The notes under the pieces were generated by a model. That model was not told the origin of the DNA. It was given only the letters and a program-made list of their open reading frames with translations, and searched no databases. A program made the position numbers and the translations under genes. A stretch of DNA of 64,000 bases, taken from contig JAFYHN010000112.1 in NCBI GenBank assembly GCA_017539165.1, positions 16,912 through 80,911 on the forward strand, written 5' to 3'. Shown piece after piece: positions 51,457 through 59,009 of this stretch. Origin of the DNA: Eubacterium sp. Its GTDB lineage: Bacteria > Bacillota > Clostridia > Lachnospirales > Lachnospiraceae. Positions within the stretch are counted from its first letter, which is position 1. Each line of letters opens with the position of its first letter.

Positions 51457-51561
51457 TATTATCAATGTGGCACTGTTCATGTTTTAGTGATAAAATATGA
51501 ATAGTGCTTTGTTTTGTAATAAAATTATTTGACATTTATTGTTCTTGAAAGAGGATTGATT

Positions 51562-52173
51562 ATGGAAAGTATATACGGAGAATATGAGCCTGTGCTCATA
51601 CGTATTAAGGAAGAGGTAGAGAAGAGATTTAACGAATACCAGGAGAAAGTTTTACAGGAAACAGGTGAGAAGGGTTTCGAACATCTGTCGGTCAGAATAA
51701 AAACAGATGAGAGTATGCGTGAGAAGTGTAGACGTAAGGGGGTTCCCGAGACTACAGAGTCTGCGCTAGTCACATTGAAGGATGCTATAGGAGTTCGAGT
51801 TGTCTGCTCATTTGTGGATGATGTATTTAAAGCAGCTGAGTATATAAAAAATATGGAAGGCTGTGAAGTGATCGAAGAGAAGGATTATATCCGTCATGCC
51901 AAGCCGAATGGATACAGAAGCTATCATATTATACTTGCGGTGCATCCGAATTCTAAGGATGTTCTTGGAAATGTCCCCGGAACGTACTATATCGAGCTCC
52001 AGCTCCGTACGATAGCTATGGATACATGGGCAGCTCTTGAACACAAGATGAAATACAAGAAGGATATCCCGAATCAGAATATTCTGGTTTCGGAACTGAA
52101 GCGTGTTGCCGATGAACTGGCATCATGTGATCTATCTATGCAGACTATCAGAGAACTGATAGACACATTGTAA
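51562..52173 (+). CDS. Small alarmone synthetase (RelQ/RelP type), copy 1
   Basis: 203-residue single-domain (p)ppGpp synthetase. RelA/SpoT synthetase motifs: GVRVVCSFVDDV (about 83-94), KPNGYRSYHII (substrate binding) and ELQLRTIAMDTWAALEHKMKYKK. No hydrolase, TGS or ACT domain, so it is a SAS. The start at 51562 has AGAGGA upstream. It lies directly after the FAS operon and ends at a strong terminator. A paralog is at 58347. Confidence 0.9.
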   Translation: MESIYGEYEPVLIRIKEEVEKRFNEYQEKVLQETGEKGFEHLSVRIKTDESMREKCRRKGVPETTESALVTLKDAIGVRVVCSFVDDVFKAAEYIKNMEGCEVIEEKDYIRHAKPNGYRSYHIILAVHPNSKDVLGNVPGTYYIELQLRTIAMDTWAALEHKMKYKKDIPNQNILVSELKRVADELASCDLSMQTIRELIDTL

Positions 52174-53785: not shown

Positions 53786-53827
53786 AACTCATTCCTCCTT
53801 TTCATGCTAAACCTAATTTATAGTTAC

Positions 53828-53850
53828 TGTATCAGTGTTCAGCTGATACA
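53828..53850 (-). promoter_or_regulatory. Hairpin in the flotillin mRNA leader
   Basis: GTATCAG/CTGATAC (8 bp with flanking T-A) between the riboswitch and the floT ribosome site; no T-run. Confidence 0.5.
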
Positions 53851-53905: not shown

Positions 53906-53969
53906 AAAAAAGACCACCTTGCAGCTGTAGACGTTATCAATATCTGATAACATCGGCTACAAAACAGTC
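53906..53969 (-). terminator. Riboswitch-controlled terminator upstream of floT
   Basis: On the minus strand GACTGTTTTGTAGC (53969-53956) pairs at all 14 positions, five of them G-U, with GCTGCAAGGTGGTC (53925-53912), followed by TTTTTT (53911-53906). A small GTTATC/GATAAC hairpin lies inside the loop. Its first arm contains the 3' strand of aptamer helix P1. Confidence 0.8.
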
Positions 53970-54103
53970 TCGCTATTTAATCATTAACCGAATCATACGT
54001 ATACTTAATAAAGTAAACTTTGATTGTCTTGACGATTAGATGAACACTTATCAGTACAGTATGTATAATACTGAATCATGTAAGCTACTCCCTATCTGTA
54101 TTG
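53960..54103 (-). promoter_or_regulatory. yybP-ykoY (Mn2+) riboswitch aptamer
   Basis: Minus strand reads, in order, GGGAGTAGC (54092-54084), a hairpin arm with CAGTAT/ATACTG, TCGTCAA (54035-54029), ATTCGG (~53993-53988) and TAGCGAGAC (53975-53967): the conserved landmarks of the yybP-ykoY aptamer. Helix P1 is CAATACAG (54103-54096) with CTGTTTTG (53967-53960), one mismatch. The class binds Mn2+ at the contact of its two arms and usually raises expression of metal exporters. Here the downstream gene is a flotillin. Identified by eye; alignment to RF00080 would settle it. Confidence 0.75.
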
Positions 54104-54106
54104 ATG

Positions 54107-54138
54107 ATTATACTATCAGAAGGGGGATTCGGCGTCAA
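54107..54138 (-). promoter_or_regulatory. Possible promoter of the riboswitch-floT transcript
   Basis: Minus strand: TATAAT at 54112-54107 with TTGACG at 54138-54133, spacing 20 nt (longer than ideal). Start would be near 54100, at the first base of aptamer P1. Confidence 0.5.
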
Positions 54139-58346: not shown

Positions 58347-59009
58347 ATGGATTATCCAGAGGAAACAAGTTTTCGAAAAGAAGCTGAAGAGATAGCAAAG
58401 AATTTTTCGAGGACAAAAGAATTTAATGATCTGCTGACTCTCTACAGATGTGCCATAATGGAGATCGAGACGAAACTCAGGGTACTTAATGAAGAGTTTT
58501 CACTTCAGTATGACCGTAATCCGTTCGAGTCAATCGAGTCGAGACTGAAGAGTCCGGCTAGTATAGTCGAAAAGATGATGGCCAAAGGCCTGGAGATAAA
58601 TGTTGAGAATATTGAAGGAGAATTATTCGATATTGCCGGGATCAGAGTAGTATGTTCATTTAAAGAAGATATTTATAAACTCGCGGATCTTCTGGTACAA
58701 CAGGATGATATTCTCATGCTGGCAAGAAAGGATTATATAGAGAATCCAAAGTCAAATGGTTACAGAAGTCTTCATATTATAGTTGATATACCGATATTCC
58801 TGTCTGAAGGAAAAAGACATATGAAGGTAGAGGTTCAGTTTAGAACGATAGCTATGGATTTCTGGGCATCGGTAGATCATAAGCTGAAATATAAGAAGGA
58901 GATAAAAAATCCGGAAGAGGTTGTTGCTCGTCTGAAGAAGTGTGCTGATTCTCTGGCACAGATGGATGATGAGATGGAAGCAATCAGAAAAAGCTTGGAT
59001 AAGTCGTAA
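58347..59009 (+). CDS. Small alarmone synthetase (RelQ/RelP type), copy 2
   Basis: 220 residues, single RelA/SpoT synthetase domain: FDIAGIRVVCSFKEDI (about 93-108), NPKSNGYRSLHIIV and VQFRTIAMDFWASVDHKLKYKKE. Same family as 51562-52173 but distinct, like the RelP/RelQ pair of other Firmicutes. AGGAG ribosome site. Lies in the AraC-SAS-Nudix-PspA gene run; a Nudix hydrolase follows after 6 nt. Confidence 0.9.
   Translation: MDYPEETSFRKEAEEIAKNFSRTKEFNDLLTLYRCAIMEIETKLRVLNEEFSLQYDRNPFESIESRLKSPASIVEKMMAKGLEINVENIEGELFDIAGIRVVCSFKEDIYKLADLLVQQDDILMLARKDYIENPKSNGYRSLHIIVDIPIFLSEGKRHMKVEVQFRTIAMDFWASVDHKLKYKKEIKNPEEVVARLKKCADSLAQMDDEMEAIRKSLDKS

Follow-up and report, generated by a model that had tools for sequence, protein, structure and literature searches.

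Results

The floT locus and its leader

The window, which is the whole stretch of 64,000 nucleotides from Eubacterium sp. that we analysed, carries on its minus strand a floT gene preceded by a structured leader (Table 1). In Pfam, the floT product matched PF01145 with 70 bits and PF15975 with 36.4 bits, both over cut-off, and with its SPFH and flotillin domains it is a member of the flotillins, which confirms the first-pass annotation in naming a flotillin as the first downstream gene; the score with the NCBIfam FloT equivalog was 265.9 bits, under the cut-off of 700. The next gene-like ORF beyond floT is convergent. ORFs resembling small RelA/SpoT-type (alarmone synthetase) proteins were seen by eye at 51529-52173 and 58347-59009.

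Table 1. Features of the floT leader and gene, with the second element of the same genome. Positions are those of the window unless a contig is named.
Feature	Position	Strand	Remark
floT, flotillin-like SPFH protein, 510 aa	52253..53785	minus	first ORF of transcript
Shine-Dalgarno AAGGAGG of floT	53794..53800	minus	sequence
Six-U run 3' of terminator	53906..53911	minus	sequence
Intrinsic terminator hairpin	53912..53969	minus	arms 53969-53956/53925-53912, 14 bp
Terminator inner stem	53954-53945/53939-53930	minus	folding
Whole aptamer	53955..54106	minus	extent matched by covariance models
P1 3' strand, within first terminator arm	53958..53967	minus	bulged U at 53961
L1 3' strand AGCGAGAC	53967..53974	minus	opposite GGAGUAGC
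L3 3' nucleotide C53990 and P3a 3' strand 53989-53981	53981..53990	minus	covariation
P3b 5' strand base	54021..54025	minus	pairs with 53995-53991
L3 5' strand GUCAAGAC	54026..54033	minus	8 nt; 54030 is the equivalent of L. lactis A41
P3a 5' strand, bulged C at 54039	54034..54043	minus	pairs with 53989-53981; covariation
P2 stem-loop	54044..54081	minus	RNAfold; basal pairs vary on both sides
P1.2	54085-54083 with 53974-53972	minus	pairing
L1 5' strand GGAGUAGC	54084..54091	minus	A10 equivalent is 54089
P1 5' strand (switch helix, P1.1 of L. lactis)	54092..54100	minus	pairs with 53967-53958
Candidate sigma-70 promoter, TG before -10	54110..54138	minus	9/12 matches to consensus
Candidate promoter boxes	TTGACG 54138-54133, 17 nt, TAGTAT 54115-54110	minus	
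Second element of the clade in the window's genome	G000:C64:66947-67075 (L137:401-529)		before ABC ATPase and FtsX/MacB permease

From its boxes, a sigma-70 promoter is likely at 54138-54110 and would start the transcript near the P1 5' strand. A TTGAC plus -10 pattern, which was defined after the floT leaders had been read, occurs at the equivalent place in all 15 floT leaders; a promoter scan found 4 candidates and the shuffles gave a mean of 3.6, so that the count itself was not above shuffles. A 9-bp hairpin at 53828-53850, between the terminator and the floT Shine-Dalgarno sequence, is terminator-like on the plus strand. In 7 of the 15 relatives (L044, L045, L046, L047, L049, L050 and L051) a short conserved ORF of about 69 aa (MAYFPPxPxIRRN...) that has a Shine-Dalgarno sequence lies between riboswitch and floT, and the one copy that was scanned had no Pfam match.

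The 14-bp terminator followed by six U was found by folding just as first described. Folding to the edge of the U run gave exactly 14 terminator pairs, and RNAfold added two pairs when the U run was included; the minimum free energy structure of the full leader contains the terminator (-50.9 kcal/mol, z -2.93 with 200 shuffles). The helix P1, which the first-pass annotation had closed by 54103-54096/53967-53960, was recovered as a helix and not in that register, which holds one U-U mismatch. We replaced it by a register that abuts L1 and is conserved in relatives, in which 54092-54097 pair with 53967-53962 and 54098-54100 with 53960-53958; all 14 floT leaders in the alignment keep the three pairs next to L1.

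As had been proposed, P1 and the terminator are mutually exclusive, since the P1 3' strand (53967-53958) lies within the terminator arm 53969-53956, and the switch helix competes with the expression platform as in the class. The overlap is kept in relatives: the terminator 5' arm reaches GAGAC/P1 in 15/15 floT leaders and in 58 of the 65 elements found in the genus (see below), the seven that were not counted being five in which an early U run was picked (L112, L113, L117, L118 and L121), one with a repeat (L135) and one at a contig end (L140). In RNAfold the terminated fold has -50.4 kcal/mol, compared with -40.7 kcal/mol when all conserved helices are enforced and -40.9 kcal/mol with P1 alone. 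Because the terminated fold is more stable than the P1-enforced folds, the default state of the leader would be off.

Architecture and covariation of the aptamer

All four landmarks that had been read in order on the minus strand are present. Searched on both strands in a strict and a relaxed form, the ordered pattern occurred once in the window and in none of 300 dinucleotide shuffles, a descriptive count, as the pattern was composed after the element was known. All 25 listed pairs of P1, P1.2, P3a and the P3b base are standard. RNAfold gave the aptamer alone a branched fold with P1, P1.2, P2 and P3b (z -1.14, not clearly above shuffles), in which P1 is one base off beside L1 and P3a takes another register that pairs into L3; we took the helix registers from covariation rather than from folding energy.

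The L1 internal loop holds the GGAGUA and GAGA that mark the class. Its 5' side is GGAGUA and its 3' side AGAC in 65/65 elements, ending in GAGAC in 63 and in AAGAC in 2; both motifs were required by the script, and no element of the 65 failed on them. The two pairs of P1.2 on the L1 side are standard in 65/65 elements, with GC/AU exchange, and GUAAC occurs in L1 of five elements, each of which carries GUGAGAC on the facing strand, a concerted change of P1.2.

The nucleotides of the metal site are likewise conserved. In L. lactis, the MB site is formed by G9, U39, C40, A41, U44 and C45, of which A41 gives Mn selectivity, according to excerpts of PMC9190785 and PMC6754395. The ligands U39, C40, A41 and C45 fall on 54032, 54031, 54030 and 54026 of the window. 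L3 holds GUCA in 64/65 elements and GCCA in one; the A41 equivalent is present in 65/65, where the residues of L137 were entered by eye and the script itself gave 64, and the C45 equivalent in 64/65. In X. oryzae, A10 is received by a base pair whose counterpart here is C54034-G53989; it is C-G in 64/65 elements with one gap, so that L3 has both the Mn-ligand nucleotides and, at 54034-53989, the C37-G A-minor receptor pair of the class. For this mapping we assume the numbering of G38 and C37.

The four-way junction with P4 of the crystallised members was not found, as the gap from P3a to L1 is only about 7 nt in the models (longer in L054). P4 was not counted as a defining feature: even the mntP leaders detected by RF00080 have no insertion at this place in the alignment, and P4 is not known to be universal in the yybP-ykoY class.

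Covariation supports the structure. For 14 floT leaders the supplied structure gave 95.7% of cells paired, compared with 84.8% when shuffled and 30-43% when slid, with two-sided changes at 14/27 pairs and a covariation score of 0.381 as against 0.160; none of 500 shuffles was as high on any of five measures. L054 was left out of this alignment of the 15 leaders (14 rows) as MAFFT had misplaced its P3. Unaided, RNAalifold on the 15 leaders found P3a and P3b, with two-sided changes at 11/14 pairs, and did not find P1, P1.2 or P2. Among relatives, the P3b base showed two-sided changes at all five modelled pairs. In the alignment of the 65 elements (A4), 94.4% were paired compared with 70.7% in shuffles, and the covariation score was 0.615 as against 0.180. 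A4 and a further alignment, A5, were fitted to the model structure; the number of pairs with two-sided changes was near that of shuffles in both (21 vs 18.9, 18/500, for A4; 20 vs 18.4, 92/500, for A5), and the remaining measures were above shuffles.

These data bear on whether the leader still switches. An inherited element whose control of floT has been lost, leaving a constitutive terminator or constant read-through, would fit a terminated fold favoured by about 10 kcal/mol over the P1-enforced fold and a P1 that in the window holds two G-U pairs and a bulge. We consider such decay very improbable, since the landmarks, the covariation and the overlap of P1 and terminator are kept in 15/15 orthologues, and a stable default terminator is what one would expect of an ON switch.

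Relationship to the yybP-ykoY class

The first-pass annotation had assigned the leader to the yybP-ykoY class and pointed to the Rfam model RF00080. That scan was non-significant: there was no match to the element at E<=10 by cmscan of 2 kb or of 231 bases or in a whole-genome search, and by the Rfam cut-off (45 bits) the window element is not a member of RF00080. Matches to mir-251, mir-142, FourU and a snoRNA in Rfam were discarded, all being under cut-off. In E. coli, RF00080 gave mntP 41.6 bits, which is under the cut-off of 45, and did not report alx at E<=0.1 (L234, L235). It passed its own cut-off in 0/299 genomes of the family and in 2/14 control genomes, and at E<=0.01 it matched 9/299 family genomes. 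We gave its silence little weight because alx goes unreported, E. coli mntP stays under cut-off and no family genome passes; after the E. coli control we did not accept the silence as a refutation. RF00080 is insensitive here, though not useless.

We therefore relied on covariance models of the clade itself. R1 was built from the floT leaders. R2 gave the window element, one of its own 65 training rows, 78.5 bits. R3, trained on the 50 elements outside floT, gave it 75.3 bits (E 1e-15) and at E<=10 matched nothing else in the window; the 50 rows had been collected with R1 and are held out in letters, with a selection that depends on the floT leaders. One of these rows, L096 of G024:C5, stands before an unrelated gene and is nearly identical to a floT leader from a different genome, G009; no floT was found in G024 at E<=1e-20.

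R3 found all 15 floT leaders and 7/7 mntP leaders of the genus (43-46 bits, E 1e-8 to 7e-8). Those seven are the best matches of RF00080 in the 61 genus genomes, weak ones (19-27.5 bits) that all lie before mntP genes, and the clade models score them at 25-28 (R1), 42-45 (R2) and 43-46 bits (R3). Six of these mntP genes (L032-L034, L036-L038) encode MntP fused to a ZIP-like part, as judged by Pfam for L033 and by similarity to L033 for the others; the mntP of L035 is cut by a contig end. E. coli alx was matched with 27.4 bits by R2 and, in the right register, with 27.5 bits by R3 (E 3e-4), and E. coli mntP scored weakly (15.2 bits, E 0.02, with R2; 15.0 bits, E 0.3, with R3).

Statistical homology to accepted members is found, with R3, through the mntP leaders and alx. 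The chain from the floT leaders through the mntP leaders to RF00080 gives the window element a statistical link to the Mn2+ class, beyond that of shared motifs. From architecture, covariation and R3 homology, the proposal of a yybP-ykoY-type aptamer before a flotillin gene is supported, and the leader is very probably homologous to the yybP-ykoY (Mn2+) class, as a divergent clade that lacks P4 and has a three-way junction. This divergent form is outside the recognition of the public RNA library.

The silence of RF00080 would be in keeping with a protein-binding or other structured leader whose likeness to the class is a convergence of short motifs. Against this stand the full-length R3 matches, in the right register, to 7/7 mntP leaders and E. 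coli alx, the covariation of P1.2, P3a and P3b around a nearly invariant L1 and L3, and the P-type ATPase and CaCA context described below, and we rate convergence as highly improbable.

Genes under the element in the genus and beyond

Flotillin was found in 22/61 genus genomes at E<=1e-20. The expectation that the element would precede floT in relatives held for the close orthologues, with the loops and the overlap kept: all 15 with upstream DNA (the window's own and 14 more, 84-100% identity) have it, and an additional close copy, L058, is truncated where its contig ends. It did not hold for more distant flotillins. One homologue of 68% identity and five of 47-49% lack an L1 motif within 700 nt, and R1 matched none of these sites. 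At the named floT loci of public genomes, R2 matched 15/61, namely 14 close orthologues and that of Eubacterium uniforme ATCC 35992, a floT of 64% identity with an R2-matching leader; the other 46/61 gave no match, L186 and L189 being without upstream DNA. The link between floT and the element is local. Nucleotide BLAST of the leader against the 61 genomes returned short pieces only, several of which are the promoter-P1-L1 stretch of elements that R1 detected.

A flotillin-specific element, or flotillin as an isolated target, is contradicted by the genus, where 50 of 65 elements lie elsewhere. At E<=0.1, R1 found the 65 elements in 35/61 genomes, with six as the largest number in any one genome. 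They precede floT (15), ABC-FtsX operons (24), DUF3137 operons (16), CaCA genes (5) and others (3), and 2 lie at contig ends. The ABC operons have both the ATPase and the FtsX/MacB permease in 24/24 cases, and the DUF3137 operons have LemA in 15/16. The window's genome has two elements at E<=10, before floT and before an ABC operon (Table 1); its mntP has no clade leader, and the idea that this mntP shares the floT-type leader was dropped.

A P-type ATPase or mntP relative on the same strand within 2.5 kb downstream was found for 1/50 non-floT elements, L126 (G013:C3). There the operon under the element consists of DUF3137, LemA and mntP-ZIP as one close gene run, the mntP-ZIP beginning 17 nt past the LemA match and being 82% identical along its full length.

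In the family, R2 matched 135/299 genomes at E<=0.01. The best 29 family loci besides our own, which are the best-scoring and a non-random sample, precede P-type cation ATPases (15), CaCA genes (11), an AI-2E transporter, an OAD beta gene and floT (one each). In this tally the element was placed wrongly in L214, L218, L225, L228 and L249, although the labels agree with the gene already seen there for the first four and with a recheck for L249; the element of L260 was unlocated. In the phylum, 44/398 genomes matched at E<=0.001; 5/8 of the CaCA labels at this level rest on 22-27% identity. Elements also lie before Na+-transporting oxaloacetate decarboxylase beta-like genes (L213; L249, L253, L256 and L261), labelled by Pfam in one case and by similarity in four. 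Outside the family, a clade element in L248 (G614:C63) precedes a LemA-like gene (29% identity), and the association with LemA may predate the genus. Because P-type ATPases and CaCA dominate the best family loci, cation export looks like the ancestral job of the clade and the envelope genes of the genus look like recruits.

Discussion

We interpret the leader as a member of a divergent Mn2+ riboswitch clade that acts as a transcriptional ON switch and whose regulon has spread to envelope genes, a reading to which we assign a probability of about 80% from comparative sequence evidence. We infer Mn2+ as the ligand, ON as the direction and a benefit of flotillin under high Mn2+. In the proposed mechanism, Mn2+ together with Mg2+ would fill the site between L1 and L3, the two legs would dock and P1 would be stabilised. 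P1, once formed, would block the terminator through the shared 53967-53958, and RNA polymerase would read on into floT. In L. lactis and X. oryzae, metal between L1 and L3 stabilises P1 and blocks strand invasion by the terminator, according to excerpts of PMC11087558 and PMC6754395. Without the metal, transcription would be stopped by the terminated fold, which RNAfold favours by about 10 kcal/mol, and ligand and co-transcriptional timing would tip the leader from default off to on. At high Mn2+, the additional flotillin would then benefit the membrane or the transporters and proteases in it.

The target genes also allow a variant in which the scaffold is the same and the clade of the genus senses another signal, such as another divalent ion, for example Ca2+, or alkaline pH. 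The targets in the genus are mostly floT, ABC-FtsX, DUF3137-LemA and CaCA, of which CaCA would suit Ca2+; most mntP-ZIP genes carry a separate leader subtype and the window's mntP is without a clade leader; and alx, which shares the L3 arrangement, responds to alkaline pH too in an excerpt of PMC9603457. However, the nucleotides of the metal site are kept, including the Mn-selective adenosine, position 44 departs from L. lactis and agrees with alx (A), a clade element heads the operon that contains mntP-ZIP (L126), and elements of the clade in the family lie before P-type ATPases and CaCA exchangers. We regard another signal as unlikely.

In the Eubacterium ruminantium group, this clade of Mn2+ riboswitches may have shifted in part from the control of metal export to that of an envelope-maintenance regulon, in which cytosolic Mn2+, possibly with alkaline pH, would directly set the level of membrane scaffolds. 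That regulon would jointly comprise flotillin, DUF3137-LemA, the FtsX/MacB ABC transporter and CaCA. We hold this extension tentatively, at somewhat below even odds.

What flotillin might do under Mn2+ is suggested by B. subtilis. Among the membrane proteins co-recovered with MeeF/MeeY, of the TerC family, an excerpt of PMC10550928 tables FloT and FloA along with FtsH and secretion components, and an excerpt of PMC7231995 describes activation of a YqgP-FtsH membrane quality-control route by Mn2+ excess at low Mg2+. We conjecture that Mn2+-induced flotillin could scaffold membrane machinery such as the YqgP-FtsH route; as far as the tabled proteins go, the MeeF/MeeY data independently point the same way, to a tie between flotillin and metal. 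In the open-access literature that we searched, yybP-ykoY and flotillin are co-mentioned in one work, the TerC paper PMC10550928, and our searches there found no pairing of 'manganese riboswitch' with flotillin and none of yybP-ykoY with Lachnospiraceae. Co-mentions of yybP-ykoY with LemA were set aside as probably the author name Lemay, caught by start-of-word matching.

Taken together, a common Mn2+-type riboswitch clade appears to have been missed by RF00080 in the Lachnospiraceae, because RF00080 matches 9/299 genomes, none over cut-off, and the clade model 135/299. Flotillin, LemA and an FtsX-type ABC transporter would be tied to one defined and directly testable metal signal, and the L126 operon joins DUF3137 and LemA directly to the manganese exporter gene mntP-ZIP.

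Comparison with known systems

Compared with the L. lactis yoaB and X. oryzae riboswitches of RF00080, the window element has the same L1, GGAGUAGC/AGCRAGAC, the same 8-nt L3 5' strand with a GUCA start and a C end, and the same competition of P1 with an intrinsic terminator, with a presumed ON logic. The C-G and U-G pairs that close P3a are presumably shared with L. lactis. The crystallised members have a four-way junction with P4, whereas P4 is absent from the window clade, which has a three-way junction; position 44 in L3 is U in L. lactis and A in the window element, as in alx. The target of the window element is a flotillin in place of an exporter, and RF00080 does not score it.

The L3 arrangement of E. 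coli alx is the same, UC-GUCAUUAC ... C-GG as compared with UC-GUCAAGAC ... C-GG in the window. Unlike the window element, alx precedes an annotated Mn2+ exporter gene in a proteobacterium, and its L1 3' side and P1 fit the clade model poorly. The alx and mntP leaders of E. coli are described as Mn-sensing riboswitches in an excerpt of PMC9603457. Within the genus, the mntP leaders (L032-L038) are recognised by RF00080 and by R2/R3 alike, as the window element is by R2/R3; they differ in a shorter P2, another kind of L3 (GUCAACAUAC) and an exporter target.

A further likeness is to RF02617, SSRC10 (Streptococcus sRNA 10), filed in Rfam as an sRNA, which aligns with the equivalent stretch of 3 related elements with 43.2, 30.4 and 29.9 bits, all under its cut-off of 56; the 43.2-bit match is to the floT leader of E. 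uniforme. Sub-cut-off overlap sites are L211:1474-1596, L218:1515-1633, L213:1476-1598 and L182:2179-2301. In S. pyogenes, SSRC10 lies before a putative calcium transporter gene, according to an excerpt of PMC3675131, and a possible reading of SSRC10 is a riboswitch in the leader of a calcium/manganese transporter gene.
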